Assembly: GCA_028287465.1 (NCBI GenBank)
Contig: JAQBPO010000062.1
Location: 1-64,000 of the forward strand
Origin: Fibrobacterota bacterium
Lineage (GTDB): Bacteria; Fibrobacterota; Fibrobacteria; UBA11236
Direction: 5' to 3'
Length of the DNA stretch: 64,000 nucleotides
This document shows, piece after piece, positions 30,139 through 62,469 of this stretch (position 1 is its first letter; each line of letters begins with the position of its first letter). Both the position numbers and the translations under genes were made by a program. Below the pieces are notes generated by a model that saw only the letters and a program-made list of their open reading frames with translations, ran no database searches and was not told where the DNA came from.

Positions 30139-30231
30139 CGGTACCTGGTGAAGAATGCCGCATCCTATCGGAACTCCAGTAACCCAATTTTTGGGGAATT
30201 CGAGCCATTTTGGCGGAAATTCGGGCCCATC

Positions 30232-30298
30232 TGGTGAAATAGAGTTCATCACTTTCAGCGGACCCCGGGTGGACAAATGCCTCCCCTGGGCATAAGTT
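30232..30298 (+). promoter_or_regulatory. Chitin-regulon promoter cassette, copy C
   Basis: TGGTGAA (30232-30238), six-base spacer, TTCATCA (30245-30251), 18 bp, TGGACA (-35, 30270-30275), 17 bp, TAAGTT (-10, 30293-30298). The predicted transcription start (~30305) coincides with the GTG start codon of the regulator at 30306, so the mRNA is probably leaderless. Confidence 0.8.
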
Positions 30299-32446: not shown

Positions 32447-32533
32447 CCGGACCAAGGGAAATCACCGCAATCAGCGGAATCGCCGCGCGTGGCCCCAGGC
32501 GCGCAAGGCGGCCCGCATGCAACGGAGACAATC

Positions 32534-35582: not shown

Positions 35583-35584
35583 CC

Positions 35585-36538: not shown

Positions 36539-37529
36539 CGACGCCTCCGCCCCCGTATTGGACGTCCAGGGCCTTCACGTGGCCTTCCGCGGGGAGGCCG
36601 GCCTTTTGAAAGCCGTGGACGGATTGGATCTGCGCGTGGAACCGGGCGAGGTGCTCGGCATCGTGGGCGAATCCGGATCCGGCAAGTCCGTGAGCATGCT
36701 CAGCATCACCGACCTGATCAAGAAGGAGAACCGGGACACCTCCGGCACGGCATCCTTCCTGGGCCGCGACCTCGTCGCGCGGGATCTTCTGAAGATGGGC
36801 AAGGAAGAGCTCGGCAGGATCCGCGGCAAGGATATCGGCTTCGTCTTCCAGAACCCCATGAGCTCCCTGAACCCGACCATGCGCATCGGCGCGCAGATCG
36901 CGGAAGGCATGCTGCACCACGGGGAAGCCACCCGCGCGGACGTCAAGGAAAAGGTCGTGGCCTTGCTGGACAAGGTCGGCATCCGGGAACCGGAGAAGCG
37001 TTACATCGCCTATCCCCACGAGCTTTCCGGCGGCATGCGCCAGCGCGTCATGATCGCCATGGCTTTGTCCTGCAATCCCAAGCTGTTGATCGCGGACGAG
37101 CCCACCACGGCCCTGGACGTGACCGTGGAGAAGCAGATCCTCGAGTTGATGATGAAGATGAAGGACGAGCTGGGGCTCAGCATCATCATGATCACCCATA
37201 ACCTTCCCGTCGCCCTCAACTATTGCGACGGCATCCTGGTCATGTACGCGGGCAAGGTGATGGAGACCGGCACCGCCCTGGACCTGGTGTCCCATCCCGG
37301 CCATCCCTATACCAAGGCTTTGTTCTCCTCCAATCTCGAGCTCGGCAGGCGAGGCACCCGCGTGGAGCCCATCAAGGGCAATATCCCGGCCCTGACCCAT
37401 CTTCCCTCGGGCTGCAGGTTCCATCCGCGCTGCCCGATGGCGACGGACAAATGCCGGAACGAAGTACCGCCCGCCATGCAGTCGGCCGGCCTCTCCGATC
37501 ATCTCACCTTTTGCCACTACCCGCTTTGA
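36525..37529 (+). CDS. ABC transporter ATP-binding protein, DppD/OppD type
   Basis: 334 residues, cytoplasmic face. Walker A GESGSGKS, Q-loop FVFQNPMSSLNP, signature LSGGMRQR, Walker B LLIADEPTT and H-loop ITHN are all present. The C-terminus has the oligopeptide-transporter Cys motif GCRFHPRCPMATDKC. ATG 36525 overlaps the end of the permease gene by 14 nt. Pairs with the next ATPase to power import. Confidence 0.93.
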   Translation: MARNSDASAPVLDVQGLHVAFRGEAGLLKAVDGLDLRVEPGEVLGIVGESGSGKSVSMLSITDLIKKENRDTSGTASFLGRDLVARDLLKMGKEELGRIRGKDIGFVFQNPMSSLNPTMRIGAQIAEGMLHHGEATRADVKEKVVALLDKVGIREPEKRYIAYPHELSGGMRQRVMIAMALSCNPKLLIADEPTTALDVTVEKQILELMMKMKDELGLSIIMITHNLPVALNYCDGILVMYAGKVMETGTALDLVSHPGHPYTKALFSSNLELGRRGTRVEPIKGNIPALTHLPSGCRFHPRCPMATDKCRNEVPPAMQSAGLSDHLTFCHYPL

Positions 37530-37540
37530 TAGGTGACACC

Positions 37541-38395
37541 ATGAGCGATTTCATCCTTGAAGCGACCGACATCCGCAAGACCTTCGGGAAGGGCGACCGG
37601 GCCGTGAAGGCCGTGGACGGCATCTCCGTGAGGATCCGCCGCGGCAAGACCCTGGGCATCCTGGGGGAATCCGGTTCCGGCAAATCCACCCTGGGACGCT
37701 GCATCCTGCGCCTCATCGAGCCGGACGGCGGAACCATCAAGTTCGACGGCAAGACCGTGTCGGGCATCCCCCAATCGCAATTCCGGCCCAACCGCCGCAA
37801 TATGCAGATGATCTTCCAGAATCCCTTCTCCTCCCTGAACCCGAAGATGAGCATCGGGGAGGCGATCGAGGATCCCATGCGCATCTGGAAGATCGGCGAC
37901 AAGGAATCGCGCCGCAAGCGCGTGACGGAACTGCTCGACATGGTGGGCATCAATCCCCGCCGCTCCGCGGCCTATCCCTACGAGTTCTCGGGCGGCCAGC
38001 AACAGCGCATCAATATCGCCCGGGCCCTGTCCCTGGATCCCAAGTTCATCGTCTGCGACGAGGCCGTTTCGGCCCTGGACGTTTCCATCCAGACCCAGAT
38101 CGTGAACCTGCTGATGGACCTGCAGAAGCACCTGGGCCTGACCTACCTCTTCATCTCCCACAACCTGGGCGTGGTGGAGTACCTGGCGGATGACGTGCTC
38201 ATCATGCAGCATGGCAAATTGGTCGAGTACGCGCCCACGGAGGAGATCTTCAAGAATCCGCGCAGCGAGTACACCCGCAACCTGATCGCCTCCGTGCCGG
38301 CCATGCCCACGGCGGCCCATTTGCAGGCCAAGGAAGCCGATCGGATCGCGCGCGGCAAGGGCCTCGCCTCAGCCCGCAGCGCCGTCGCCGGATAG
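37541..38395 (+). CDS. ABC transporter ATP-binding protein, DppF/OppF type
   Basis: 284 residues. Walker A GESGSGKST, signature FSGGQQQRI, Walker B FIVCDEAVSALD and H-loop FISHN are present. It is shorter than most DppF proteins because the C-terminal Cys-rich oligo_HPY segment is missing; it ends in an Ala/Arg-rich tail. ATG 37541 has AGGTGA at 37531. Last gene of the importer; a terminator follows at 38432. Confidence 0.92.
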   Translation: MSDFILEATDIRKTFGKGDRAVKAVDGISVRIRRGKTLGILGESGSGKSTLGRCILRLIEPDGGTIKFDGKTVSGIPQSQFRPNRRNMQMIFQNPFSSLNPKMSIGEAIEDPMRIWKIGDKESRRKRVTELLDMVGINPRRSAAYPYEFSGGQQQRINIARALSLDPKFIVCDEAVSALDVSIQTQIVNLLMDLQKHLGLTYLFISHNLGVVEYLADDVLIMQHGKLVEYAPTEEIFKNPRSEYTRNLIASVPAMPTAAHLQAKEADRIARGKGLASARSAVAG

Positions 38396-47450: not shown

Positions 47451-48575
47451 TCAGGGACCGGCGGGAGGGACCTGCAGGGCGCCGCGGTTGGTTCCCCGCA
47501 AGCCCCGGTATAGCGCGACCAGCAGGGACTTCTTCGTGTCCGGCACGTCCCCGTTCAGGTCCCACAGCATCACGCCCGCATAGTCGCTGTTGCGGACGTA
47601 TTCCCCGCGCACCCGCTGGCTGGGGATGCCGTTGAAAACGATGATCTCCTCGTTGCCAACGGCGTATTCGGTCTGGGTCTTCTCGTCCCAGCGGATCTTG
47701 TAGGGGACGGATTTCAGCTGCACCAGCAATTCCTTCCACACCCAGATACCGTCGTTGCCGCTGCCCTTGCCTTCGAAACCCGATCCCATGGCCGTACCGG
47801 CGTCGAAGGACTTTCCGTAGAAGGCCGCGCCCATCACCAGCTTGCTGCGCGGGATGCCGCGCTTTTCGTAATAGGACATGGATTCCTTGGAAAGGTCCAT
47901 CCCCGAATTGGGGATGACGGCCTTTTCCCAGGTCCCCATGTAGTCGTAGCTCATGACGTTCAGGTAGTCCAGCAGGTGGAAGGTCTCGTCCAGGGACCAT
48001 TTGCCGAACCAGTCGGTGGCGGCCACGGCCGCGGTGAACAGGATCTTGCGGGGTTGCTTGTCCAGGGCAGCGCGCAGCTCGCGATGGAGCTTGAGCTGAT
48101 TGTCGCCGTCGCCCTCGCCGGGGAATTCCCAATCCAGATCGATGCCGTCGATGCCGAAGTCCTGGGTCAGCTTGATGGCGTTCTTGATGAAGTTGGCGCG
48201 CGCGGAAGGGCTGGCCACTACGGCCTTGAAGCCTTCCGACTGGGAAGCCCCGCCGATCGAGAGCAGGATCTTGACTCCCTTCTCGTGGCCCAGGCGGATG
48301 ACCTCCTTGAAGTTGGGGCCGTCCAGGGGATCGGAATTCGTCAGGTTGCCGGAGTTGTCCGTGATATAGAAGGCGTACAGCAGGTGCGTCAGGTAGTCGA
48401 ATGGGATCTTGTCCGCGGTGAACCCGGAATAGTGGCTCCAGTTGGGGTAATAGCCCATCAGGAGCTTCTTCTCCTTGGCGGCGGGGGCCTTGGGGGCCTT
48501 GGGCTCCGTAGCATGCACGTTAACCCAGAGGGCTGCGGCCAGGATGGGCGCGATCTTCATGAGTGCTTTTATCAT
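47451..48575 (-). CDS. Secreted GH18 chitinase
   Basis: 374 residues. Signal peptide MIKALMKIAPILAAALWVNVHA. A Lys/Pro/Ala linker (~23-36) is followed by a full GH18 domain: MGYYPNW, LLSIGGAS, catalytic GIDGIDLDWEFP (Glu150), MSYDYMG and AGVMLWDLNGD. Hydrolyses internal beta-1,4 bonds of chitin with retention. Start ATG 48575 is preceded by AGAGGA; longer in-frame starts would precede the signal peptide and are rejected. Divergent from the operon beginning at 48920; the palindrome of promoter copy D lies ~200 bp upstream and could act on both. Confidence 0.92.
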   Translation of the reverse strand: MIKALMKIAPILAAALWVNVHATEPKAPKAPAAKEKKLLMGYYPNWSHYSGFTADKIPFDYLTHLLYAFYITDNSGNLTNSDPLDGPNFKEVIRLGHEKGVKILLSIGGASQSEGFKAVVASPSARANFIKNAIKLTQDFGIDGIDLDWEFPGEGDGDNQLKLHRELRAALDKQPRKILFTAAVAATDWFGKWSLDETFHLLDYLNVMSYDYMGTWEKAVIPNSGMDLSKESMSYYEKRGIPRSKLVMGAAFYGKSFDAGTAMGSGFEGKGSGNDGIWVWKELLVQLKSVPYKIRWDEKTQTEYAVGNEEIIVFNGIPSQRVRGEYVRNSDYAGVMLWDLNGDVPDTKKSLLVALYRGLRGTNRGALQVPPAGP

Positions 48576-48771
48576 CTTTTCCTCTTGAGGCTCGAAAGGC
48601 TCGTCTGCGGCGGTTGCCTGCCCGTTCACAAGCCGGTCCCGCCGCCTTTCGTAAGATAAATCCAACTCCCTCGCCGCACGTATGGTGGTGAAATGGGAAG
48701 GCCGGATTAATGCCATCGCCCTTCCGGAAACCTCCAAATCCCGCGAATTCAGGCGAAAAAACAGCCTCGGG
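48576..48771. other. Divergent region between GH18 gene and promoter copy D
   Basis: Holds the minus-strand promoter of the GH18 gene; a TATCTTAC element (minus, near 48653-48660) is the best -10 candidate. A lone TGGTGAA half-site lies at 48686-48692. Confidence 0.35.
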
Positions 48772-48838
48772 TGGTGAAGTGAAATTCATCACTTTCGCAT
48801 TCCGGTCCATGGACAAACAGGTTCTTTGGGCATAGGTT
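48772..48838 (+). promoter_or_regulatory. Chitin-regulon promoter cassette, copy D
   Basis: TGGTGAA (48772-48778), six-base spacer, TTCATCA (48785-48791), 18 bp, TGGACA (-35, 48810-48815), 17 bp, TAGGTT (-10, 48833-48838). Predicted start near 48845, leader ~75 nt. Drives the six-gene operon 48920-59689. Confidence 0.82.
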
Positions 48839-48919: not shown

Positions 48920-49963
48920 ATGAATCGCATTGTGAAGAAGAACATTATTGCGGCCATGGTGTTGGCCGCCGCCACCATCGCCCGAGCGGACATAGTCGTA
49001 GACGATTTTTCCGGTGAAGTGGGCTCCAATCTGCTTCCCAAGGGCGGCGCATGGCTGGCCGACGCGGACACCTGGCCGGCGATCGGCGGGTCTTCCAAGG
49101 TCACCGATCCCATCGAGGGCTCGGATCTGGTCAAAGGCGACATCTACTCCGGCGACAATATCTCCAAGGCCTATACCGATAACGGAATCACGTCCAAGAT
49201 CTACGTCACCGCCGATGTCTCCACGACCAAGAAGTGGGCCTATGCCGGTTGGGTCATGGATTTCATGAAGCCCGCCCCCCTGGATACCACCAAGCCCGTC
49301 TATGAGCTCAACTCCTGGGAAAAGCGCAACGAGGTGGACCTCACTTCCTGCGACGCCCTGGAATTGACCCTTTCCTTCGACGTGGATCGCATGCTCTGGA
49401 TCGACCTTTTCAGCCCCCAGATCGAGCGCATGAACGCCCTCGCACCCCAGTGGGGCTGGCGCTATACCGGCACCGGCTTGATGGAAACCAAGAAGTTCAA
49501 CCTCCGCGGCGTGACCGGCCCCCAGCAGAAGTGGAAGGACGACGCGAACAAGGTCCCCTTGGATCTCAAGACCGTCACCCGCATCCGTTGGCTCTATGAA
49601 GGCATGAAGAAGGGTACCGCCACGGCCGCCTACGATACCGTCGGCCATAACCTGACCATCAAGAAGGTCGCCATGACCGGCACCACCTGCGCGATCACCG
49701 CCATGCCGGGCAGCTCCCTGCCCATCGTAGCGCGTTCCGCCGCCAAGTCGGCCCTGGCCTTCTCCGCCGCCAACGGCAGCCTCCGCTTCGACAACGTGAC
49801 CTCCGGCCTCAAGGTGACCGTCCGCAACATCGCGGGCAATATCGTGGCCGAAGGCGCCGTCAACGGCTCCCATCCCTCCTTGAACGTGTCCGCCCTCAAG
49901 AACGGCGTGTACATGGTCCAGGCCGGGAACGGCAAGGCCGGTTCCTTCACCGTCCTCAAGTAA
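48920..49963 (+). CDS. Secreted CBM-like protein with C-terminal sorting-type tail
   Basis: 347 residues. Signal peptide ending ATIARA (~23). Residues ~25-255 start with IVVDDFSGEVGSN and form a beta-rich region resembling CIA30/CBM11-type carbohydrate-binding jelly-rolls. Residues ~275-347 match a type A sorting (Por-secretion) tail: GSLRFDNVTSGLKVTVRNIAG in part, NVSALKNGVYMVQ, ending in KAGSFTVLK. It is likely secreted and attached to the cell surface, binding chitin or its oligomers. First gene under promoter copy D; an intrinsic hairpin with T-tract follows (50005), which would make this transcript more abundant than the downstream genes. Confidence 0.78.
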   Translation: MNRIVKKNIIAAMVLAAATIARADIVVDDFSGEVGSNLLPKGGAWLADADTWPAIGGSSKVTDPIEGSDLVKGDIYSGDNISKAYTDNGITSKIYVTADVSTTKKWAYAGWVMDFMKPAPLDTTKPVYELNSWEKRNEVDLTSCDALELTLSFDVDRMLWIDLFSPQIERMNALAPQWGWRYTGTGLMETKKFNLRGVTGPQQKWKDDANKVPLDLKTVTRIRWLYEGMKKGTATAAYDTVGHNLTIKKVAMTGTTCAITAMPGSSLPIVARSAAKSALAFSAANGSLRFDNVTSGLKVTVRNIAGNIVAEGAVNGSHPSLNVSALKNGVYMVQAGNGKAGSFTVLK

Positions 49964-50004
49964 TCCTCTCGGATTGACCTGTCCGGCGCGGCGGCGCGCC
50001 GTTG

Positions 50005-50035
50005 GGGGAGAAGGGGTTTCTCTTCTCCCTTTTTC
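50005..50035 (+). terminator. Intra-operon terminator or attenuating hairpin
   Basis: Stem GGGAGAAG / CTTCTCCC with an eight-base loop followed by TTTTT, 42 nt after the 48920 gene and 42 nt before the next start. Partial read-through would set the ratio of the first gene to the barrel genes. Confidence 0.7.
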
Positions 50036-50076
50036 ATTCGAACGTTCTTTTCCGAAAAGCCGAGACACGAGGAACA

Positions 50077-50970
50077 ATGGACTTGATCGCCGAAATCAAA
50101 GACAAGGGGCGCGCGGCCATCCTGGCGCTCGCCCTCTCCCTTCCCGTCTGGTCCGATACGGACGATGCGCTCCGCCTGCCGGACCGCGCCGTCACCGGCC
50201 AAAGCGGCGGAACCCACTCTTCCTATTCGGAAATGCGCGAGCGCAGCCGCAAGGTCCTGAATTTCAGGCCCAAGATCAAGACGCGCCGGCCCAATATCGC
50301 CGCGGAATTCGTCGGGGAATCGGTGATCCCCGGAGCGCAGATCTGGGCCTATCCGGACGGGGGCGGCTATCCCGCGCCCGCCATCACGGATTTCCAGGCC
50401 CAGGACGGGAAGTATTCCCTGGAAGTCAGCCTCAAGGCCGACGCCTATGCGGGGGGCGCCATATGCTCCCCCTCTCCCCTGGATTTCTCCGCCTACCTCG
50501 AGACCGGAGCGCTGGAATTCTGGATCAAGGGCGATCAAGGCAAGGAAGTCTTCAGCATCGGCCTGCTCGACAACGGGAACAACCCGATGGGCCGTCCCTT
50601 GCAGGTTTCCGTCAGCTCCCGCAGCTATTCCAAGGTGCTCAATAATGAATGGCGCCGGATCCGCGTGCCCCTCAAGGCGTTCGGCGGACGCGGCAGCTAT
50701 TGGAGCGAAGAAGTCAACGCCCGCATCTTCTCGACGCTCAACTGGTCCGCCATCTCCTGCTTCAGCTTCGACATCGATAAGGAAAGATTCAAAACGTTCA
50801 AGGTCTGGATGGACAACGTGGTCGTGTACAAGAAGGCGCCCAAGGACAATACGCCCGCAGGCGAGGAGTACTCGATTTCCAACGAGGACTTCGAGGATTT
50901 CCCCGGCGGAGCCTCTCAGGCGCGTAACGGCCAACAGGGCGGCGCCGCGAACAAGGAGGCGGTCAAGTGA
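50077..50970 (+). CDS. Exported CBM-like protein
   Basis: 297 residues. The N-terminal hydrophobic stretch (AAILALALSLPVWSD) suggests export. Residues ~85-255 are a CBM11-like beta-sandwich (GALEFWIKGDQGKEVFSIGL; NNEWRRIRVPLKAFGGRG; KTFKVWMDNVVVY). The tail after ~260 is acidic and Gln/Ala-rich, likely disordered. Start ATG 50077 has GAGG nearby; a GTG/ATG further upstream lies inside the hairpin and is rejected. Its stop overlaps the next GTG start as GTGA, so it is coupled to the barrel gene and may be a periplasmic or surface partner of it. Confidence 0.75.
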   Translation: MDLIAEIKDKGRAAILALALSLPVWSDTDDALRLPDRAVTGQSGGTHSSYSEMRERSRKVLNFRPKIKTRRPNIAAEFVGESVIPGAQIWAYPDGGGYPAPAITDFQAQDGKYSLEVSLKADAYAGGAICSPSPLDFSAYLETGALEFWIKGDQGKEVFSIGLLDNGNNPMGRPLQVSVSSRSYSKVLNNEWRRIRVPLKAFGGRGSYWSEEVNARIFSTLNWSAISCFSFDIDKERFKTFKVWMDNVVVYKKAPKDNTPAGEEYSISNEDFEDFPGGASQARNGQQGGAANKEAVK

Positions 50971-53372
50971 GAATGCGCGGAATGAAAGCGATGCTCCCCG
51001 GAGCCCCGGCGCTCGGAGCGATGGCGCTCTTGGCCGCGGCGGCCTGGACCGGCGCCATGGCCGGCGAAACCGGAGCCCTTGCGGACGCAATGGCGTCGGA
51101 AAGCGATCTGGACTCGGCGGCCATCAAGGAGAGGATCTCGGACATGAACCTGTCCAAGTCCCTGGACAAGGTGGCCTTCTCCGGCCTCATCTACAACCGG
51201 GCCTTCAACCATCAATACCTGGAGTTCCCGGCCAACCTCGGATCGGACGCGTCCGGCACCTCCTATGACGCCAATTTCACCTTGAAGGTGAGCATCAATG
51301 CCAGCCCGCTCATCAAGGTCTGGTCCATGCTCAGCTTCGGCTACGATTTCGGCGGGAATTTCCTGAACCAGAAGGCCTTCACCCATCCGCGCACTTCGGA
51401 TCTCCCCGGGTTCGGCCCCGTCCAGGATACGGTCTACAGCGATATGGGCCGCGTGCGCCCGGAACAGGACAAGAACCGCGAAGCCGCCCGGGTCTTCGAG
51501 GATCTGATGGCGGGCGTGGACATCCGCACCGAGGCCGTGGACGCCAACGTGCGCGCCGGCGGGACCCTGTGGATGCAGGGCAGCCCCCTGACCATCTGGA
51601 AGCGCGATCCGCGCCAGCATCCCGCCTGGTATTTCGAATCCTACGAACCGGAGCAATCCTCCGCGCAGTACTACACCCAGAAATTCTACTACCGCCGCAA
51701 CGATCTGGGCCGCGCCAGCTGGCCCAAGAAGGCCTTCGGCGGCATGGAAGTGGATGCCTTCAAGCTTCCCGCCGATATGGGCTTCCAGTTCGATTTCGCC
51801 CAGCCTTCCAACATGCTGCCTTCCAAGACCGACGGCAACACCAACTCCCATGCGGGCGACGCCGAGGCCCTGAATTCCATCAACAGCCTGGGGCAACTCT
51901 ACTTCGGCCGCCTCACGCGGCGGGCCCTCTTCAAGGACGTGACCGGCGGCCTCAACCTGCTCTGGGTCGAGATCCCGAAGGACATCGTCAATCAGAAGGT
52001 GCTCTCCCCGAATCCGGTCCAAGGGTTCAAGTACCAGTTCCGGGACGGCGGGCAGCCCTTCTATACCAACCCCAGGGTATTCTCGCTCGACTCGCGCGGC
52101 AACCTCGCTCCCGGCATGTTCTGGCAGTCGGATATCGCCCTCAGCCTGGAAGACACCGTCAAATACCTGCCCTTCATCAACGGCGCGGACACGGTGTACG
52201 ACGGGCGCAGCAGCGTCACGCGCACCCAGAGCAAGCCCGCCCCGGCTGCCTACGCCAAGCTCAACACCAGCGGCAGCCTGCCCATGGAGACCGAGGTCTT
52301 CTTCGCGGCCAAGGATTTCTGGTCCCCTTACGCCGTCACGGAATACGCCGTGCCCGTGCACCGGGACGAGATGAAGCTGGGCACGGGCTCCTTCAGCTAC
52401 CAATCCAACCTGGTGGGCCTCAATTGGAAGGTTTCCCCCAAGGTGACCACGGGATTCCTGTCCCTGACCCTGGGACAGCACGTGCAGGCGGAAAAGGGCA
52501 AGGACCTGCTCCGCTTCCAGCATACCGTCAACGGCCGCGAAGCCTGGTATTCAACCACCTCCTGGTCCCGCACCGAGCCGGGCCGCATGCTGGACGAAGG
52601 CAGCCCCTACGGGAATCCCCGCTACGAGGGCCGCGTCGGCGAGATCCATCCGGGCAACGACATCCTCCATCTGCACAACCAGCCGGGCGGCCTGCACGGG
52701 GACGATCTCGAAGTGTGGGAGGAGTTCGCGGCCTATGACAATGCGGCCCAGGCCAATGCCGGCCAGGTCCCGCAAAACCAGAAATACTCCTTCTCCTCCG
52801 CCCTGGATTGGGGATACAACGTAGGCTCCCTCATCGGGTACGAACGCCCGTTCATGGTGGCCCTCTACAGTTCGGTGAATACGATTTCCAAGACCCTGAC
52901 CGGTCCCCTCAACAACGGCAACACCCTCCTATGGTCGGGCATGGCCCGCTTCGAGCCCGCCATCTCCCTGAGCCCCACCTTCCAGATGCTCGGGCTGATC
53001 GGCCTTGAGACCTGGAAGTCGGACAAGGCATACCGAAACAAGCTCGCGAACAAGCAGGGCGTGAACGACGGGTTGACCGGATACCAGCTCGTGGTAGGGT
53101 CCGACGGCAAGCCCGTCATCTACGACAACATCCATTATTACGAGCCCATCTCCAGCTACGCCGGCGCGTCCCTGCCGTCGCCCCTGGTCGACGCGGAACT
53201 CTCGCCCATCGATTACATGCAAATGGCCTATGGCCTGGGTTTCGACTGGGACTTCAGCGAACGCGCCGGACTCCATGTCCGCTGCAAGTACGCCACCCAT
53301 GAGGATAAGAATCTGCCGTCCAACAATTGGAAGGGCGCCTTCGTGTTCGGGGAAACTAAAATATGGTTCTGA
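50967..53372 (+). CDS. Large outer-membrane beta-barrel protein 1 of chitin operon
   Basis: 801 residues. Signal peptide (ALGAMALLAAAAWTGAMA). The body has many amphipathic beta-strands with aromatic girdles and ends in a C-terminal Phe (ETKIWF), typical of outer-membrane barrels recognised by BamA. No TonB box, plug domain or SusD homologue could be seen. GTG 50967 has AAGGAGG with seven-base spacing and overlaps the previous stop; ATG 50973 is the alternative. Not assignable to a named family. Operon position between CBM-like proteins and further barrels suggests binding or uptake of chitooligosaccharides (inference). Confidence 0.7.
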   Translation: MRMRGMKAMLPGAPALGAMALLAAAAWTGAMAGETGALADAMASESDLDSAAIKERISDMNLSKSLDKVAFSGLIYNRAFNHQYLEFPANLGSDASGTSYDANFTLKVSINASPLIKVWSMLSFGYDFGGNFLNQKAFTHPRTSDLPGFGPVQDTVYSDMGRVRPEQDKNREAARVFEDLMAGVDIRTEAVDANVRAGGTLWMQGSPLTIWKRDPRQHPAWYFESYEPEQSSAQYYTQKFYYRRNDLGRASWPKKAFGGMEVDAFKLPADMGFQFDFAQPSNMLPSKTDGNTNSHAGDAEALNSINSLGQLYFGRLTRRALFKDVTGGLNLLWVEIPKDIVNQKVLSPNPVQGFKYQFRDGGQPFYTNPRVFSLDSRGNLAPGMFWQSDIALSLEDTVKYLPFINGADTVYDGRSSVTRTQSKPAPAAYAKLNTSGSLPMETEVFFAAKDFWSPYAVTEYAVPVHRDEMKLGTGSFSYQSNLVGLNWKVSPKVTTGFLSLTLGQHVQAEKGKDLLRFQHTVNGREAWYSTTSWSRTEPGRMLDEGSPYGNPRYEGRVGEIHPGNDILHLHNQPGGLHGDDLEVWEEFAAYDNAAQANAGQVPQNQKYSFSSALDWGYNVGSLIGYERPFMVALYSSVNTISKTLTGPLNNGNTLLWSGMARFEPAISLSPTFQMLGLIGLETWKSDKAYRNKLANKQGVNDGLTGYQLVVGSDGKPVIYDNIHYYEPISSYAGASLPSPLVDAELSPIDYMQMAYGLGFDWDFSERAGLHVRCKYATHEDKNLPSNNWKGAFVFGETKIWF

Positions 53373-55447
53373 AGCACGCTTCCATCGCCCTCGCCGCGCT
53401 CATCGCCGGCGGTTCGAATCCCACCTCCGCCCAGACGCTCCGGGAGCGCATGGACGATACCTACGAACGCGTGCTCTCCAAGCACGGCGTGGACGTGGGC
53501 GGCCGGGTCAATTCCGAGTACTTCCATTCCGATCTCTCAGGATCGGCCAAGGCGGACACCAATTACGCCTTCGAGACCACCCAATTCACGTCGTTCGACC
53601 TGGACATGCAATACCGGGCCTTCGACAACATCACCGCCCAGGCCTCCCTGCGTTTCTACCAGGATTGGCAGACGTTCTTCGCCACCCGCAGCCGCATCCT
53701 CGCGGCGCGCTGGCTCAGCGTGGACGGCAACATCGCCAGGACCCTGGGCTTCAACGCCGGGGATTTCCGCCAGAAGTATTCCGAGCTGACCTTGTGGTCG
53801 CCGGAGCTGGACCTCGTCTACGAGCCCATGATCTTCTCGCGCATGCGCCGGGACCTCATGGAAGAACAGCACATCGCCGATAACGATCGCATCCTCCAGG
53901 GCGGCAACCTCAATTTCGCGCGCCGGTTCGACGGCGCCTTGAGCGAATTGCGCCTGGACGCGTTCGGTTCGCGCATCCGCCGCGGCGAGTTCCTGGACCC
54001 GGACGGTTACCAGGGATTCCACCTGGCCAAATCGGACATGGACCGGTTCGCCTTCGGCGCCAATGGAGAGGCGTTCCTGGCCAAGAACGTATTCCTGGGC
54101 GGTTCCTACCTGGCCATCCTGGACGACCGCGACAGCTACCGGCAGACCGCGCACAATGCCGCCTACATTCAAGGCCTTGTGGACGTGGGCGCCCCGCCTC
54201 CCGCTGGATGGTCCCTGAACGATCGCGACTCCGTGGTCGCCCGCGATATCCGCGTGGTTTCGGGCCGCGCGGGCGCGGACGTGGCGGGATTCCTGGGCAA
54301 CCCGGATCTCACCCTGAACCTGACCGCCGAATACGCCCTCTCCCAGGAGGCCAACCGGTTCGCATGGCATTTCAAGAAGGACGCGGCCGGCAAGGACGTA
54401 TCCTTCGAGTCGAATGCCCCGGGCAAGGACGGCAAGGCCCTTTTCGCGGAACTCGAGGCCGGTTACGCCGGACGGGACAGCGGTTTCGGCGTCAACATCG
54501 CCCTGGGCTACCTGAACAATGAAGCGGCTTTCCTCAACCCTCTCGCCCAGAGCCCCACCTTCATCGCCGCACGCATCATGAACACGGAAAACGATTACGC
54601 GGACGGGCGGCTCTATTCCACTTTCGACGCCTTGAACAACGGGGTGTACAAGTTCAGCGCCTCCCAGAAGGTGGTCGGGGCCAACGAATCCTACCATCAG
54701 GCCCCGCTTTCCAAGACCTCGTACAACAACGGGATCCTCTCCCCCGAGGACCTTTCCGCCTACCATGGGGACCCCGTTCTGCAACTGGTCCTTCCCAACG
54801 GCAACGCCACCCCCAACCGCACGGGCCCCAAGGCCCGCCTTACGGGCCATTGGGCCGGCTCCCTGCACGCCACCGTCGACATCGCGATGCTCAAGGAACT
54901 CGAAGGCGGGATCGTCGACGGTACGGTCGCACCCCTGGCCACTTTCACCCAGATGGGCGGAGGCCTGCTCGTTGAGGCCGGCAAGATGATGGGCAGGCCC
55001 CAGGCATTGGATTTCCAGGCCAGCTTCGTCCGCAGCGCTTCCAAGCGGGATCGCGTTTCCAAGGACCTTACGGAACCGGAAATCACCGCGGACCTCCTGA
55101 TGGCGGGTTTCCGGTGGCAGTTCTTCACCAAGTGGGGCCTGCTCGGCGGGTACCAGCAGGCCAAGGTGGCCTCCCCCATGCGCCTCAGCGAGATAGGCGG
55201 AGCCGACGCCAAGGCCCATTCCTACCAATACACGCTCGATGAAACCCAGAAGCATTTCCGCGCGGGCGTCGAATACGCCGTGACCCGGGACGCCTACCTG
55301 CTCCTTTCGGGCGGTTTGGTTTCCGTGGATCGCACTCGGATCAACCAGGGGACCGCGGAAAACGCGGAAGGCCCCATCGCGGCGCGCAACGTCTCTTCGG
55401 ATTTCACCCAGACGCTTTCCCAAGTCGTCATCAAGGTCAGGTTTTAG
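53363..55447 (+). CDS. Outer-membrane beta-barrel protein 2 of chitin operon
   Basis: 694 residues. Signal peptide MVLKHASIALAALIAGGSNPTSAQ. Strand-rich barrel ending in VVIKVRF. It is homologous to the next gene: shared stretches include ARW(L/F)S, GDFRxKxSxLTLxSPxLDLxYEPxIF, xGxATPNRxG, LKELEGx and GGGxxVEAGKxxG. ATG 53363 overlaps the previous gene by 10 nt. Family not recognised; presumed transport or binding role in the chitin operon. Confidence 0.7.
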   Translation: MVLKHASIALAALIAGGSNPTSAQTLRERMDDTYERVLSKHGVDVGGRVNSEYFHSDLSGSAKADTNYAFETTQFTSFDLDMQYRAFDNITAQASLRFYQDWQTFFATRSRILAARWLSVDGNIARTLGFNAGDFRQKYSELTLWSPELDLVYEPMIFSRMRRDLMEEQHIADNDRILQGGNLNFARRFDGALSELRLDAFGSRIRRGEFLDPDGYQGFHLAKSDMDRFAFGANGEAFLAKNVFLGGSYLAILDDRDSYRQTAHNAAYIQGLVDVGAPPPAGWSLNDRDSVVARDIRVVSGRAGADVAGFLGNPDLTLNLTAEYALSQEANRFAWHFKKDAAGKDVSFESNAPGKDGKALFAELEAGYAGRDSGFGVNIALGYLNNEAAFLNPLAQSPTFIAARIMNTENDYADGRLYSTFDALNNGVYKFSASQKVVGANESYHQAPLSKTSYNNGILSPEDLSAYHGDPVLQLVLPNGNATPNRTGPKARLTGHWAGSLHATVDIAMLKELEGGIVDGTVAPLATFTQMGGGLLVEAGKMMGRPQALDFQASFVRSASKRDRVSKDLTEPEITADLLMAGFRWQFFTKWGLLGGYQQAKVASPMRLSEIGGADAKAHSYQYTLDETQKHFRAGVEYAVTRDAYLLLSGGLVSVDRTRINQGTAENAEGPIAARNVSSDFTQTLSQVVIKVRF

Positions 55448-55448
55448 G

Positions 55449-57734
55449 ATGGAACCGGTGTCGAACCAGCTTAGGACCGGAATCGCGGCATGGATCGCGA
55501 CGGTCATGATCACGGCCTCTTTCACTGCACTCACGGCAACGGCCCAGACCGCCGGTGCCAATGTCCCCGCCAAGGACGCGGCGGATTCTTCCGCGGCTCC
55601 TGCGGCAGCCTCCGCCCCTGCGGCCGGCCATGCGCCGGACACGTCCGCGGCGGAATCGGAATCAGTGGAAACCGCCTCCGAAGCCCTTCCGGCCCCCGCG
55701 CCGGCAACGGTCGCGGCCTCGTCCGTCCCCTCGGCGTCGCCGGAACCCTCCTTGAAGCAGAAGGTCGCGGGATGGGAAAGGAAGGAACTCGGGATCAGCG
55801 TTTCCGGCCAGGCCTCCTCGCGGTTCCTCCAGTCGGCGATTTCCGGGGACAGCGCCCGGATCACCCAGCCAGGCCACGAGAACCACGCGTTCTCCCGGGC
55901 GGACGTCGAGTTCCTGGCCCGTCCCAGCGCCACGACCTCGGGCAAGGTCCTGTTCCGCATCCACCAGGACTGGTCCAACTATTATGATGAAGGCCCCAAT
56001 CCCCTCCTGGCCCGCTGGTTCAGCTATGACGGCACCATCGTCGACGGCAAGGTCGCCTTCGACATCGGGGATTTCCGCGCCAAGTTCTCGCCGCTCACCT
56101 TGTATTCGCCCGGGCTCGATCTGCTCTATGAACCGGAAATCTTCACGGGTCGCCGCAGGATGGCCATGGATGAATGGCACCTGACCGACGAGAATCTCCT
56201 GCCCCTCCAAGGCTTGCACGCCGTGTACACCCAGGGCCTCACCCAAAACGCCGGCATCGAGGCCGGCGTGGCCGGAGCCCGTCTGCGCACCGGCGGAGCC
56301 TCCCAGTTCTCCTGGGTCTACTGGACCGACGACGTCGAGAAGCTGATGGCCTCCGGATACGCCAAGGTGAACCTTTTCCAGGCCCTGGAAGTCGGCGCCA
56401 CCCGGATCCAAATCGTGGACCCCGTGCCCACCAGCCGTTCCATCAACAATGAATACAACGCCCTCACCCCTTCCGCCATCTTCGAGAACGTCACCGTGAA
56501 CGCGGTCAACCTCGGGCTGGACGGCAAGCGTTTCCTCGGGAACGGCCCGGTGTCCCTGCGCCTGGACGGCGAACTGGCCATGTCCGGCTACCGCAACGCC
56601 CACGACGTCGCCGACTCCGTCGGGACCCGCTCGGTGATCAAGGTGCTGCAGAACGGGAGCCTGGACACGGTCGAGCAGACCCGCTACGCCTTGAAGCTCG
56701 TCAAGGACAAGGAGATCAAGGGACAGGCCTTGCGCGCCTCCTTGCACGCCGGTTACCGCGAAACGGAGGCGGGGCCCTTCTCCCTGGCCCTGAACGCCTC
56801 CTTCCTGAAGAACGACAAGGATTACGTCAACGACGTGGCCCAGTCCCCGTCCTTCATCGGCACCCGCATCTTCAATTCCGCCAACGGCGTGGGCGGATTC
56901 CAGAGGGGTTACAACAGCTTCGACGCCATGTACGACCATGTATACACCGTCGACCCGGTCACGAACATCAATACTTCGGAATTCTGGTTCCAGGACACCA
57001 AGATCTACAACGGCACCAACAATTGGTACCGCGCCGCGCAATTCAAGAACTCCTACCGCAACAGCGTGACCACCAAATCCGAACGGGATTTCCTGGCCGG
57101 AGCGATGGATCCCCACCTGCAATTGCTTTATCCGTTCGGCCCCGCCACCCCCAACCGCCAGGGTGTGGACGCCAGCCTCAAGGCCTCGGCCCTGGAAGGG
57201 ATGGTGGAGGCCACCGTCCTGTTCGCGGCGCTCAAGGAACTGGAAGGATTCAAGACCGATCCCGCGACCGCCACGGAAGCCGCGACCCTCGGCCGCATGG
57301 GCGGAGGCGCCAAGGTCGAAGCCGGCAAACTGCTCGGGCTGAAGAACCGCATCACCGCGAGCGCCGGTTACGTCGCGGACTCCCGCAAGAACCCGGCCTA
57401 CAACGTAAAGGATACGTCCTTCGCCGAGTGGACCTTCAAGTCCGCCATGCTCAGCGCCGGGGTGTACGCCGGCATCTGGAAAGGCCTGGCGGTGCTGGCC
57501 GGCTATCAGCAAATCAAGTCCAATCCCTTTTCCGGAGTCTCGGGATCCGCGACCGCGAAAAGCGTCAACGAAGCGGATTTGAAGCAGAGCATCTGGTCCC
57601 TGGGCCTGGAGTACCGTATCGCCCCCGGCGCCTACGTCACCGGTGAATACGGCATGATCGGTTTCGACGAGGCCAAGTCCGCCACCGAATACAGCCAGGC
57701 CGTTTCCAGCCTCAACCTGATCGTAGGCTTCTGA
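55449..57734 (+). CDS. Outer-membrane beta-barrel protein 3 of chitin operon, paralogue of barrel 2
   Basis: 761 residues. Signal peptide ending near TATAQ (~33). An Ala/Pro/Ser-rich linker (~34-100) precedes the barrel, which ends in SSLNLIVGF. The barrel shares blocks with the protein at 53363 (RWFSYDG, GDFRAKFSPLTLYSPGLDLLYEP in part, PATPNRQG, KELEGF, GGGAKVEAGKLLG), so the two arose by tandem duplication. The added linker may cross the periplasm or contact peptidoglycan. The stop overlaps the GH20 start as TGATG. Confidence 0.7.
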   Translation: MEPVSNQLRTGIAAWIATVMITASFTALTATAQTAGANVPAKDAADSSAAPAAASAPAAGHAPDTSAAESESVETASEALPAPAPATVAASSVPSASPEPSLKQKVAGWERKELGISVSGQASSRFLQSAISGDSARITQPGHENHAFSRADVEFLARPSATTSGKVLFRIHQDWSNYYDEGPNPLLARWFSYDGTIVDGKVAFDIGDFRAKFSPLTLYSPGLDLLYEPEIFTGRRRMAMDEWHLTDENLLPLQGLHAVYTQGLTQNAGIEAGVAGARLRTGGASQFSWVYWTDDVEKLMASGYAKVNLFQALEVGATRIQIVDPVPTSRSINNEYNALTPSAIFENVTVNAVNLGLDGKRFLGNGPVSLRLDGELAMSGYRNAHDVADSVGTRSVIKVLQNGSLDTVEQTRYALKLVKDKEIKGQALRASLHAGYRETEAGPFSLALNASFLKNDKDYVNDVAQSPSFIGTRIFNSANGVGGFQRGYNSFDAMYDHVYTVDPVTNINTSEFWFQDTKIYNGTNNWYRAAQFKNSYRNSVTTKSERDFLAGAMDPHLQLLYPFGPATPNRQGVDASLKASALEGMVEATVLFAALKELEGFKTDPATATEAATLGRMGGGAKVEAGKLLGLKNRITASAGYVADSRKNPAYNVKDTSFAEWTFKSAMLSAGVYAGIWKGLAVLAGYQQIKSNPFSGVSGSATAKSVNEADLKQSIWSLGLEYRIAPGAYVTGEYGMIGFDEAKSATEYSQAVSSLNLIVGF

Positions 57735-59689
57735 TGGCCGGCAAATCCGCACCCAAGGGCCGCAAGGCCCCGCGCGCCGCCGCGCCCGCCGCGTCCGCTT
57801 CTTACTCTTCCGACGCCTCTTACCTCGACTTCAAACCGTTCAAGCTGCCCGCAGCCCCCTGGTCCAAGGACCTGGCGCGCCTGCTGCCCGATGCCTTTTC
57901 CCTGACCCGGGGCCAACCGGTCCGCCTCAACCCCGGCCTGGAAGAGGGCTATGCCATAGGCATGGAGGATGACGGCCTCCATATCGCCTACCGGTCCACG
58001 GACGATCTCATTCTGGCCTTGGGCGATATCGTTTCCGGAACGGTGCCCGCCGACGGATCCAAATCCCTCCCGTACGATTTCCGCGGCATCATGCTGGACG
58101 TCAGCCGGAACGCCGTCGCGCGCACGGGGTTCCTCAAGGATCGCATCGCCCAATTGTCGCTCCTCGGCCTCAACCGCTTCTGCCTCTATAGCGAGGACGT
58201 ATTTCCCGTCCCGGGCGAGCCGCTTTTCGGCTATGCGCGGGGATGCTACGCGGCCGCGGACATCAAGGATCTGGTCGGGCACGCGAAGCGGTTCGGCGTG
58301 GAACTGTTCCCGTGCATCCAGACCCTGGGGCACATGGAGCATATCCTCAAGTACCCGCATTACTTCCCGCTCAAGGACAACGACTACGTCTACAACGTCT
58401 ACGCGAAGGATCTCTACGCCTTCATCGAGAAGACCATCGACGCGGCCGTCGCTCCCTACGACACCAAGGTGATCCACATCGGCATGGACGAGACCTTCGG
58501 CCTGGGGCGCGGGCTCGCCTTCAAGGAGAACGAAGGAATCAACCCGCGGGCCTTGTACGTAGAGCATGTACGCAAGGTCGTGGAAATCTGCCGCAAGAAG
58601 GGCCTGCAACCCGTCATGTGGGGGGACATCGTCCTGGGCCACGGCGGCGAACAGGCGATGGGCGGGGACGAGGCCGGACGCCTGCCCAAGGACGTGGTGA
58701 TGAATTATTGGCAGTACGCCTGGTGCGACGCCGACAAGTACGACCACGACCTGGCCGATTTCAAGAAGCTGGGATACGCGCCTTACGTTTCGCCCGGCGC
58801 CTGGAGCTGGTCCCGTTTCTTCCCCGCCTATTACAAGGCGGAAGCCAACATCGACTCCCTTCTCGAGGCGGGCAAGCGCGCCGGCGTACCCGGCGCCCTC
58901 AACACCCATTGGGGCGACGACGGCCACGAATGCTTCTTCGACTACAACCTTCCCGCCCATGCGTTCTTCCTGGCGCATTGCACCGAGAGGGAGAACGTCC
59001 TGGAAACCGCCAAGCTGCGCTTCCGCGCCGTCTTCGGCGAGGATTTCGACGCGGTGCGTTCCACGGAAAAGATCGACCTGGCCGGCACAACGCCGGACGC
59101 CCTCATCCCCGCCAATATCGGGAAATGCTTTTTCTACGACGACCCGGCGCAGGGCCTTTTCAGCGGCCTGCCCTTCGTGAAGCCGGCCGGGAACTTCTAC
59201 GCCAAGACGGCCAAGGAGATGGGCGCCCATGCCAAGCGCGAGGGCATGTTCCAACCCCTGTTCCGGTTCGCCGAAGCCTTCTGCGATTTCCTCGCGGTGA
59301 AGGCGGACCTGCGCCGCAAGGCCGTGGCCGCCTACCGGAAAAAGGACAAGCGGGCCCTCAAGGCGCTCTTAGGCGACATCGCCAAGGCGGAAACCCGCCT
59401 GGCCAAGGTCCGCGTCCTGTACCGCGCCTACTGGCTCCAGGAACGGAGTCCGTTCGGCCTGGAAATCGTGGACGGGCGCATGGGAATCCTGGCCTCGCGC
59501 CTCGACCATCTCCGGCATATCCTGACCGAACACCTGGCGGGACGCTACCCGAAGGTGGAGGAATTCGAGTTCAAGCACTTCTCCATGTTCCATCAATCCC
59601 GCAGCCCGGATTATCAGCCCTCGATCTGGCCGGAATTCATGCTCCACTATTCCGCCTTGGGAAGCCGCAATACCATCAAATGGTGGTGA
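57734..59689 (+). CDS. Cytoplasmic GH20 beta-N-acetylhexosaminidase
   Basis: 651 residues. A ~25-residue Lys/Ala/Pro-rich N-terminus without a hydrophobic core argues against export. The GH20 barrel spans ~115-480: FRGIMLDVSRN, FPCIQTLGHMEHIL, the catalytic pair Asp252-Glu253 in HIGMDETFGLG, and WGDIVLGHGG. The enzyme uses substrate-assisted catalysis to release GlcNAc from the non-reducing end of chitooligosaccharides. The C-terminal ~150 residues are helical and charged. Last gene of the copy-D operon, coupled to the barrel gene; it fits processing of imported chitobiose. Confidence 0.92.
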   Translation: MAGKSAPKGRKAPRAAAPAASASYSSDASYLDFKPFKLPAAPWSKDLARLLPDAFSLTRGQPVRLNPGLEEGYAIGMEDDGLHIAYRSTDDLILALGDIVSGTVPADGSKSLPYDFRGIMLDVSRNAVARTGFLKDRIAQLSLLGLNRFCLYSEDVFPVPGEPLFGYARGCYAAADIKDLVGHAKRFGVELFPCIQTLGHMEHILKYPHYFPLKDNDYVYNVYAKDLYAFIEKTIDAAVAPYDTKVIHIGMDETFGLGRGLAFKENEGINPRALYVEHVRKVVEICRKKGLQPVMWGDIVLGHGGEQAMGGDEAGRLPKDVVMNYWQYAWCDADKYDHDLADFKKLGYAPYVSPGAWSWSRFFPAYYKAEANIDSLLEAGKRAGVPGALNTHWGDDGHECFFDYNLPAHAFFLAHCTERENVLETAKLRFRAVFGEDFDAVRSTEKIDLAGTTPDALIPANIGKCFFYDDPAQGLFSGLPFVKPAGNFYAKTAKEMGAHAKREGMFQPLFRFAEAFCDFLAVKADLRRKAVAAYRKKDKRALKALLGDIAKAETRLAKVRVLYRAYWLQERSPFGLEIVDGRMGILASRLDHLRHILTEHLAGRYPKVEEFEFKHFSMFHQSRSPDYQPSIWPEFMLHYSALGSRNTIKWW

Positions 59690-59772
59690 AGAGCGCCTCC
59701 TTCCGGGAGGATTCTTCCCGGATCCAAAAACCGCAATTGGCCCTTCCCGACCCCATGGAATCAGGGCGCGAG

Positions 59773-59839
59773 TGGTGAACTGAACTTCATCACTTCTTTG
59801 GGCGCATCGCTGGACAAACCCCCGGATCGCGCATAGGTT
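59773..59839 (+). promoter_or_regulatory. Chitin-regulon promoter cassette, copy E
   Basis: TGGTGAA (59773-59779), six-base spacer, TTCATCA (59786-59792), 18 bp, TGGACA (-35, 59811-59816), 17 bp, TAGGTT (-10, 59834-59839). Predicted start near 59846. Drives the two GH18 genes that follow. Confidence 0.82.
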
Positions 59840-59918
59840 GTAGAACGGAATGAAGGCCATCGCGTCCATGGGACGGGCGGCCGATGGGGGTCATCCATTC
59901 CATCGGGAGAATCGGGAA

Positions 59919-61139
59919 ATGCACCATTTGAAAACCTCCATATCGAAACTCGCGGGCCATGCAGGCCGCATGGCCGGCCTATCCGCCAAGGCGATCATCC
60001 TTCCGTTGCTCGCGTGCGGATACGCGGCGGCCAAGCCCAAACTGCCGGTGCTCGCGTTCTATACGGAATGGAACGCTCCCGGTTCCGTCGACTACAGCAA
60101 GATCACCCATCTTCTCCTCGCCTTCTCCCTGCCCCAGGGCGGCGGCAACGTCACGGGATTCGTGCCCGGGGGCGTGGTCTCGGCCGCGCATGCCGCCGGC
60201 GTCAAGGTGCTCGCCTCGGTCGGCGGCGCCAACCATGGGACGGTCTTCCCCCCCATCGCCGCGAACGCCGGTTCCCGTACAACCTTCGCCAACAGCCTCA
60301 AGGCCATCTGCGACAATAACGGTCTGGACGGGGTCGACATCGATTGGGAATATCCCCAGACGGTCCAGGACAGCGCCAACTTCACCTTGCTGCTCAAGGC
60401 GGTCCGGGCGGCCGTGGGATCGAAACTCCTCACCATCGATGTCGCGGCGGACGGTGAAAAGGGCGCCTTCATCCACAAGACCGCCCTCCTGATTCCGGAT
60501 TTCGTCAACGTGATGTCCTACGACTTCACCGGTTCCTTCCCGGGTTCGCTTGTCGGCCAGCATTCCCCCTACGCCAAGGCCACCTCCAACCTGAATTACT
60601 GGCGCGCCAAGGGCGTGCCCAAGGAAAAGCTCATCCTCGGCGTTCCGTTCTACGGCAAGGATTTCAATGCCGGCGGCGCGCCGGTGGGCTACAACACCGT
60701 CATGGCCAACAATCCCGGCCTCTCCCCCGACGCGGACTCGGTCGGCCGTACCTGGTTCAACGGCGTGACCACCATCAAGAAGAAGGCCACCTACGTGGCC
60801 CAGATGGCCTACGGCGGCGCGATGATCTGGGAAATAGCCCAGGACGCCGGTGGTTCGAAGTCCCTTCTGGAGGCCCTCAATGTCGGCCTTCAAGCCACCC
60901 CCCTGTCCCTGGCCGCGGACGGCGGACGCCTGCAGCAGGTGCGCGCGGGCGAATCCTTCGGCATTGACGGTAAGGTATGGCTTTCGCTGTCGGGAACCCG
61001 CTCCTCCGATGCTTCCAAGCTGAGCGTATCGGGAACGGGCGCCGCCGCCCGCGACGTCCTCGGCCATTACCGCGGCGATGCGAACGCATCCACCCCGGCC
61101 TCCGGCGCGTATTTCCTGATTCCGGGATCGGGCCGCTGA
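59919..61139 (+). CDS. Secreted GH18 chitinase
   Basis: 406 residues. A long signal peptide (hydrophobic AKAIILPLLACGYAAA, ~24-38). GH18 barrel: PVLAFYTEWN, LASVGGAN, catalytic GLDGVDIDWEYP (Glu144), MSYDFTG, LGVPFYGKDF and AMIWEIAQD. The ~65 residues after ~325 form a small beta-rich tail. Start ATG 59919 is chosen for GGGAG upstream; an in-frame ATG at 59850 lies only four bases after the predicted transcription start and would give a 23-residue longer n-region. First gene of the copy-E unit. Confidence 0.9.
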   Translation: MHHLKTSISKLAGHAGRMAGLSAKAIILPLLACGYAAAKPKLPVLAFYTEWNAPGSVDYSKITHLLLAFSLPQGGGNVTGFVPGGVVSAAHAAGVKVLASVGGANHGTVFPPIAANAGSRTTFANSLKAICDNNGLDGVDIDWEYPQTVQDSANFTLLLKAVRAAVGSKLLTIDVAADGEKGAFIHKTALLIPDFVNVMSYDFTGSFPGSLVGQHSPYAKATSNLNYWRAKGVPKEKLILGVPFYGKDFNAGGAPVGYNTVMANNPGLSPDADSVGRTWFNGVTTIKKKATYVAQMAYGGAMIWEIAQDAGGSKSLLEALNVGLQATPLSLAADGGRLQQVRAGESFGIDGKVWLSLSGTRSSDASKLSVSGTGAAARDVLGHYRGDANASTPASGAYFLIPGSGR

Positions 61140-61194: not shown

Positions 61195-62469
61195 ATGGTG
61201 ACCACCGCCGCTTCGCGCACTCGCAAACGTCTCGCTTCCTTCCTGGGCCTGGCCCTGGCGTTCCTTCCCGCTTCCGTTTCGGCCCAGAAGAAGGTAAAGG
61301 TGACCGGCTTCTATCCCGACTATTCCTCGGGCGGCATTTCCAATACCCAGGCTTCGCAACTTTCCTACGCCATCTACTTCTCCATCAAGCCTCCGGCCGA
61401 CGGCAATGTCAGCGACGAATATATCGTCTCCAATATCGATGCCCAGCGCATGATCGACATGGTGGACCAGGGCAAGCCCCGCGGCATGGGAGTGCTGCTC
61501 TGCGTGGGCGGCGCCGCCGAGTCCGGCAACTTCCCTTCCCTGGCCGCCAACGCCGCCTCCCGCAAGAAGTTCGCGACCACCCTGGCCGCCTTCTGCTCGG
61601 CAAACGGCCTTGCAGGCGTCGATATCGATTGGGAGTTCCCAAGCGGAGCCGGCGTGAACAACTTCACCCTCCTCGCCAAGGATCTGCGTGAGGCCTTCAC
61701 GGCGAAGAACCTGGTCCTCAGCACCAACGTCAACGGCCCGGACATGTCCCCTTACACCACGGAAGCCCTCCAGCAATTCGATTGGGTGCAGGTCATGTCC
61801 TATGACAACGATTGGCCCGTGGGCTCGAGCCCCCATTCCACCATGGCCGCGGCGCAAAACCAGATGACGGCCTGGGCGAACAAGATGGGCGCGGCCTTCA
61901 AGTCCAAACTCGTCCTGGGCGTGCCCTTCTACGGAAAGCGCTCGGCGGCCCCGCAGACCATGACCTACGCGGACATCCTCAAGGCCAATCCAGGCCTCAG
62001 CCCCGCCGCGGACGAAGGCGGAGGCTATAACTTCAACGGCACCTCCACCTTGGGGCAGAAAACCAACTACGTCATCGACAACGGTTTCGGCGGCATCATG
62101 ATCTGGAACCTGGTGCAGGACGCTCCGGATGGCCGCCTTCTGGGTTCCATCAATTCGGCGGTCAAGGCCAAGGGTTACCTGGTCGAACAGGGGCCGATAA
62201 CCGTCGGCCTGGGCCGAGCAGCCGGCGCATACGCCATCCGGCCCGCCAACGGCGACGGCCGCATCCGCATGCGCGCCGCCCCCGGCGCCTACCGTCTCTC
62301 CCTGTTCTCGCCGGACGGACGGACCCTTCGCGCCGCCTCGCAGGAAACCCTTAACGGCGATTTGGCCTGGGATCTGCCCGCCCGCTCCTCGGGCCAATAC
62401 CTCTATCGATTGGAAAGCAAGGCCGGCAAGGCGGCCCGGGAAACCGGGACGGCGCCTTCGGCCCGATAG
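61195..62469 (+). CDS. Secreted GH18 chitinase with C-terminal sorting-type tail
   Basis: 424 residues. Signal peptide (FLGLALAFLPASVSAQ). GH18 barrel: VTGFYPDYSSG, LLCVGGAAES, catalytic GVDIDWEFP (Glu147), MSYDNDW, LGVPFYGKR and IMIWNLVQD. After ~345 a tail resembling type A sorting domains follows (GAYRLSLFSPDGRTL; SSGQYLYRLESK). The gene begins 55 nt after the previous GH18 with no terminator, so both are likely co-transcribed. Start ATG 61195 has AAAGG nine bases upstream. Confidence 0.9.
   Translation: MVTTAASRTRKRLASFLGLALAFLPASVSAQKKVKVTGFYPDYSSGGISNTQASQLSYAIYFSIKPPADGNVSDEYIVSNIDAQRMIDMVDQGKPRGMGVLLCVGGAAESGNFPSLAANAASRKKFATTLAAFCSANGLAGVDIDWEFPSGAGVNNFTLLAKDLREAFTAKNLVLSTNVNGPDMSPYTTEALQQFDWVQVMSYDNDWPVGSSPHSTMAAAQNQMTAWANKMGAAFKSKLVLGVPFYGKRSAAPQTMTYADILKANPGLSPAADEGGGYNFNGTSTLGQKTNYVIDNGFGGIMIWNLVQDAPDGRLLGSINSAVKAKGYLVEQGPITVGLGRAAGAYAIRPANGDGRIRMRAAPGAYRLSLFSPDGRTLRAASQETLNGDLAWDLPARSSGQYLYRLESKAGKAARETGTAPSAR

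Follow-up and report, generated by a model that had tools for sequence, protein, structure and literature searches.

By what route do the sugar chains of cellulose and chitin cross the outer membrane of Fibrobacterota? For Fibrobacter succinogenes the mechanism of cellodextrin transport has been stated to be unknown, and Raut et al. have proposed that cellodextrins enter by way of TonB (PMC6851124). The window analyzed here (the whole stretch of 64,000 nucleotides from a Fibrobacterota contig) raises this question through six genes, g1 to g6, which a preliminary description had read as a chitin operon joined by overlapping starts and stops, encoding two exported CBM-like proteins, three large outer-membrane barrels and a cytoplasmic GH20, and serving the surface capture and uptake of chitooligosaccharides independently of SusCD. 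We consider it probable that g3, g4 and g5 represent a family of plug-less barrels of the Fibrobacterota which, with a surface CBM30 protein, capture beta-1,4-linked oligosaccharides and admit them to the periplasm, here for the use of chitin, and we regard the barrels as the strongest candidate so far for the door, missing until now, by which sugar chains of cellulose and chitin pass the outer membrane in this phylum. The computed evidence consists of gene order, barrel fold class, phylum-wide synteny, a shared operator, and the absence of a plug and of SusD; by guilt by association it suggests that the pore is formed by the barrels themselves, acting together.

The operon and its predicted barrels

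The six ORFs lie on the + strand, span 48920-59689 and all have coding-like third-position GC. Five of them form a tight operon (g2 and g3 overlap by 4 nt and g3 and g4 by 10 nt, a gap of 1 nt separates g4 from g5, and g5 and g6 overlap by 1 nt) consisting of a CBM30 gene, three genes for predicted outer-membrane barrels and a gene for a cytoplasmic-type GH20. The remaining gene, g1 (48920..49963, +), ends 113 nt before g2, and this gap contains a terminator- or attenuator-like hairpin of 12 pairs followed by a T-run (50004..50031, +; the hairpin is present in the minimum free energy structure, with a z score for the whole 113 nt of only -1.8), so that g1 is probably expressed partly apart. 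A sigma-70 promoter scan detected no promoter. The g1 product is an exported protein with a weak T9SS C-terminal sorting domain (Por_Secre_tail, E=2.4e-5 in Pfam and 2e-4 for TIGR04183, each slightly short of the curated cut-off) and no match to a CBM; among the compared loci strong orthologues were found only in L034 and L051, and the gene lies outside the conserved module. Of the overlapping six-gene operon first described, the packing of g2 to g6 therefore stands, and a place for g1 in the tight operon or the conserved module is not borne out. The pair of exported CBM-like proteins is likewise reduced to g2 (50077..50970, +), an exported CBM30 protein (Pfam E=1.6e-12) that is syntenic in nearly all loci.

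The GH20 assignment was upheld: g6 (57734..59689, +) is of the GH20C type (Glyco_H_20C_C E=6.5e-31, Glyco_hydro_20 E=4.6e-12), contains the DE pair (HIGMDETFG) and has no visible signal peptide, from which a cytoplasmic location is predicted. Downstream lie genes for an exported GH18 chitinase with an intact DGVDIDWE motif (59850..61139, +; Pfam E=9.2e-48) and a further exported GH18 (61195..62469, +; Pfam E=8.7e-41), in which the motif reads AGVDIDWE, with Ala for the first Asp of DxxDxDxE and the catalytic Glu kept. A divergent GH18 chitinase with an intact DGIDLDWE motif is encoded upstream (47451..48737, -; Pfam E=4.9e-67), its true start probably lying within the ORF.

The proteins g3 (50967..53372, +, GTG start), g4 (53363..55447, +) and g5 (55449..57734, +) carry aromatic C-terminal beta-signals (KIWF, KVRF and VGF, respectively) and have no credible match in Pfam or NCBIfam, nor did the g3 and g4 profiles match any PDB sequence; judged by sequence they appear unlike any described family, and some g3 and g4 homologues have weak generic matches to OMP_b-brl or Porin_4. 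AlphaFold2 models of g3 and g4, which rest on 50-52 homologues and are of moderate confidence (pLDDT 70-75), are large all-beta barrels that begin in a helical N-terminus and contain no plug domain (g3, ~24 strands, pLDDT 70, pTM 0.73; g4, ~22 strands, pLDDT 75, pTM 0.77). Because g5 is a paralogue of g4 (hhalign E=1e-82), it is predicted to be the third barrel; it occurs in operons of the chitin and Fibrobacter types described below. Common ancestry of g3 with g4 and g5 was unsupported (profile comparison probability 7.6%), and by profile g3 is a separate family. Neither the Plug domain (PF07715) nor a SusC family of Pfam or NCBIfam was matched by g3, g4 or g5, and the homologues aligned with g3 and g4 likewise gave no Plug match. 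The preliminary description had named three large barrels and had allowed that they might be predicted as unrelated efflux or assembly proteins; the analysis gave no such assignment, and the beta-signals, the plug-less models of g3 and g4 and the paralogy of g5 agree with three predicted barrels. Among long segments outside the strands, conservation is highest in residues 387-485 of g4 and 204-254 of g3 (the top 3% and top 1% of same-length windows, respectively), and these loops would sit in or over the pore, where they may constrict the channel or select within it.

The PDB folds closest to g3 and g4 are mixed (FimD usher, AlgE, MtrB, TonB receptors, chitoporin and maltoporin, with TM <=0.34 over the query). 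The best Foldseek matches against the PDB, FimD ushers for g4 and AlgE for g3, would suit a conduit for export or assembly, by which the barrels, in the manner of ushers or export barrels, secrete or display the adjoining CBM30 or GH51 proteins, and an exported partner gene is indeed nearly always adjacent. We give this explanation very little credence: TM values this low reflect a generic likeness of large barrels, Pfam matched neither usher domains nor chaperone or pilin genes in the barrels or the scanned neighbours, and a conduit of this kind would have no need of the linkage to ABC importers and GH94 described below. For surface export, moreover, a match to SprA, the T9SS translocon, is present in 61/61 Fibrobacterota genomes (barrel-less ones included).

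A shared operator and a wider regulon

The preliminary description placed the operon under a repeated promoter element, and the repeat was recovered. The element GTGGTGAAnTGAAnTTCATCACTT, followed by TGGACAAA and GCATAGGTTTA, lies before g1 (copy 3, 48771..48794, +), and the window contains four copies, the other three with 0-3 mismatches to the one before g1, compared with 0 in 100 shuffles. Copy 1 (14260..14283, +) precedes the gene for an exported CHB_HEX_C/Fn3_assoc protein (14457-18389), copy 2 (30231..30254, +) precedes a TIGR02147/DUF4423 regulator and an Opp-type ABC importer, and copy 4 (59772..59795, +) precedes the pair of GH18 genes. A scan of the whole genome with the 19-nt core (<=2 mismatches) returned the same four window sites and a fifth, weaker match at the edge of a contig, and the reversed control returned 0 sites. 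The element is conserved in relatives as well, preceding the orthologous operon in L051 and, as the counterpart of copy 4, the GH18 genes in L032.

The regulon of this region is larger than the six genes, and also takes in the regulator, the Opp-type importer and two GH18s. The TIGR02147 (DUF4423) protein encoded directly after copy 2 (30306..31133, +; TIGR02147 E=1.2e-81) belongs to a family of Fibrobacter paralogues and is a candidate regulator of the chitin regulon and a candidate partner of the GTGAAnTGAAnTTCATCAC element. The importer comprises an SBP_bac_5 solute-binding protein (32489..34618, +; Pfam E=1.3e-65), an OppB-type permease (34620..35582, +; Pfam BPD_transp_1 E=1.2e-42), an ORF with an OppC-type permease in its C-terminal half (35042..36538, +; OppC_N E=7e-15), an OppD-type ATPase (36525..37529, +; ABC_tran E=2.4e-28, with oligo_HPY) and an ORF with an OppF-type ATPase whose true start is probably internal (37223..38395, +; ABC_tran E=5.2e-32). 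We infer that its cargo is chitooligosaccharides because it is co-regulated with the barrel operon.

The four operator-linked gene sets plausibly form an outside-to-inside path for chitin, in which secreted GH18s would cleave chitin outside the cell, the CBM30 protein (in Fibrobacter a pseudo-GH18 too) would retain chains at the surface, the barrels would let chitooligosaccharides through the outer membrane, the co-regulated importer would carry them over the inner membrane into the cytoplasm, where GH20 would free GlcNAc. Cellodextrins would be the cargo of these barrels in other lineages, with GH5, GH9 or GH51 acting outside and GH94 or GH1 inside.

Distribution and locus types in the phylum

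HMM searches found g3 in 145/168 and g4 in 146/168 Fibrobacterota genomes (80/89 and 81/89, respectively, of those of high quality), CBM30 was found in 147/168, and the three are missing from a nearly identical set of genomes. A natural comparison group is offered by four small genomes (G006-G009; 2.2-2.7 Mb) from a single genus, g2, of the same family, in which none of g3, g4 and CBM30 was recovered. A scan of one conserved peptide across ~85,000 species gave 65 loci, every one of them in Fibrobacterota, and among ~290 genomes of other phyla g4 had 1 weak match. A strict phylum-only distribution was nevertheless rejected: one genome of another phylum (G352) contains a distant array of three barrels (L146, 5341-15035; 895, 813 and 994 aa) flanked by two lipoprotein-like genes, and a wider superfamily therefore exists. 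Two of these three barrels match the g4 profile, weakly, and no CAZyme domains were found within the array. By eye, the N-termini of its barrels look SLH-like.

The barrel genes almost always adjoin genes for the handling of cellulose or chitin, and three types of locus were distinguished, parts being missing from some loci, partly through contig ends. The chitin type, in the genus of the window, has the order g1, CBM30, g3, g4, g5, GH20, GH18, GH18. The Fibrobacter type, found in Fibrobacteraceae and Fibrimonadales, has CBM30-g3-g4-g5-(lipoprotein)-GH18 on one strand in ~60 loci (the sets overlap, some loci coming from the same genome); most Fibrobacteraceae loci also have a divergent GH5 gene upstream. 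Synteny of the barrels with GH18 genes, proposed earlier as a check on the operon, thus recurs widely. The cellulose type, which occurs in other classes and is represented by a second copy in the genome of the window, combines g3 and g4 with a CBM30-CBM11-GH51-type protein, mostly with importer genes. In families f6, f7, f8, f11 and f12, g3-g4 is followed by the CBM30-CBM11-GH51-type protein, with an SBP5-OppBCDF importer adjacent in most of them and a GH94 phosphorylase or GH9 cellulase in several; the second copy in the genome of the window and its genus mates adjoins genes for a MalK-type ATPase, a sugar-binding protein, permeases and GH9, with GH1 present as well in one mate. The combination of g3-g4 with an ABC importer and GH94 or GH9 is a layout for cellodextrin uptake. 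A tree of g3 separates the cellulose type from a group made up of the chitin and Fibrobacter types and one long-branched row, the placement of four rows being unsure because their branches are long.

That different loci serve different sugars would also be expected of ordinary diffusion porins, unspecific for substrate and located near carbohydrate genes merely for the high sugar flux, and the barrels resemble such porins in having no plug and in the weak Porin_4 and OMP_b-brl matches of some members. General porins have 16-18 strands, whereas ~22-24 are predicted here together with highly conserved long loops, and the near-strict pairing of g3 with g4 and their regular CBM30 partner are not what unspecific porins would call for; we think this explanation improbable. 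The argument that weighs most in preferring uptake to adhesion (considered below) or export is that the same two barrels are tied to importers and phosphorylases across classes. Counting against the uptake reading are the only moderate confidence of the models, the mixed folds at low TM and the presence of TonB receptors in every genome.

The Fibrobacter succinogenes locus and known uptake systems

The Fibrobacter-type operon is, from locus-tag order and published domains, almost certainly that of F. succinogenes FSU_2007 (CBM30) to FSU_2012 (GH18), which has CBM30 first, four tags, and GH18 last, with the GH5 gene FSU_2005 adjoining. It differs from the window in ending with a lipoprotein and a GH18 that is inactivated in the compared relatives, rather than with GH20 and active GH18s. 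The catalytic glutamate, retained in the GH18s of the window, is lost in 67/67 aligned Fibrobacter-type GH18s (L038-L115, L139), mostly to Gln, Gly or Ile, and an active chitinase in the Fibrobacter operon was rejected on the catalytic motif. FSU_2012 (CBP-9) has been reported as a cellulose-binding protein and linked to chitinase activity (PMC6851124); from the sequences of its relatives, the Fibrobacter-type GH18, this reported 'chitinase' included, is probably a glycan-binding pseudo-enzyme. The chitin-specific role first proposed for the barrels is accordingly too narrow, many relatives adjoining cellulose genes and the Fibrobacter GH18s being predicted inactive. The CBM30 protein (Fisuc_1525/FSU_2007) and the GH18 (Fisuc_1530/FSU_2012) have been detected in fractions of the envelope or of extracellular material (PMC4619616, PMC4668043). 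In F. succinogenes the CBM30 protein is present on all substrates and the GH18 is slightly lower on cellulose, a pattern unlike that expected of an uptake system under tight induction. FSU_2008-2011 do not appear in the list of one proteomics paper, and no paper naming them was found in the literature searched.

A fold kept in the Fibrobacter GH18s after loss of the catalytic Glu, the cellulose binding reported for FSU_2012 and the constancy of CBM30 in the synteny would equally suit an adhesion scaffold, in which cells would attach to cellulose or chitin through CBM30 proteins, pseudo-GH18s and cellulases that the barrels anchor at the surface, and uptake would take place elsewhere, by general porins or TonB receptors. 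Proteins with a TonB plug occur in 61/61 genomes, with 13 plug matches in the genome of the window, and the cell is therefore not TonB-free. A scaffold explains neither why the same two barrels are found, across classes, together with importers of the inner membrane and phosphorylases of the cytoplasm nor why two or three anchors of such size would be needed, and we regard it as unlikely.

The uptake system that we prefer resembles SusCD of the Bacteroidota PULs in combining, under shared regulation, a large barrel with glycan-binding proteins or lipoproteins at the surface, enzymes outside and inside the cell and an inner transporter, and differs from it in that SusD (PF07980) was found in 0/61 Fibrobacterota genomes (a Bacteroides control was positive), the barrels have no plug, and two or three different barrels take the place of one. 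The proposal that capture and uptake here are independent of SusCD, with no plug, SusC or SusD in the system, is therefore supported by the missing SusD, the plug-less barrels, the GH18 synteny and the importers and phosphorylases found elsewhere, with transport by the barrels themselves a prediction. TonB-dependent receptors are 22-stranded, and the g4 and g3 models have, at moderate confidence, ~22 and ~24 strands; the PF07715 plug of these receptors is missing from g3-g5, though found elsewhere in each genome. ChiP and LamB, porins of 16-18 strands, are plug-less oligosaccharide barrels as well and are among the weak fold matches of g3 and g4, with which no sequence relation was found; they have no CBM30 partner.

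We hold more tentatively that these genes form a new class of glycan importer, in which two or three different plug-less giant barrels would work as one machine with CBM30 (and in Fibrobacter with a dead GH18 receptor), replacing SusCD across the Fibrobacterota and explaining cellodextrin uptake by rumen Fibrobacter. The loci suggest a second solution for glycan uptake alongside SusCD, and a gene set that is nearly universal in the phylum and linked to cellulases, importers and phosphorylases makes the question of uptake testable. For Fibrobacter, a main cellulose degrader of the rumen, candidate genes for cellodextrin entry can now be named, namely FSU_2008-2010 of strain S85.

Another recent structure-based family of large Fibrobacter outer-membrane barrels, the PopA superfamily, consists of lipid-trapping, oligomeric porin-like proteins with 16 strands and an oligomer loop 8 (PMC12228718); its members FSU_2404 and FSU_0230 are different genes from those considered here, for which the g3 and g4 models have ~22-24 strands, not 16. 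In one Fibrobacter MAG, g3 and g4 are joined in a single ORF of 1635 aa (L113, 7181 onward, and L141, 6903-11810, on the same contig), which may be a real fusion or an assembly error.
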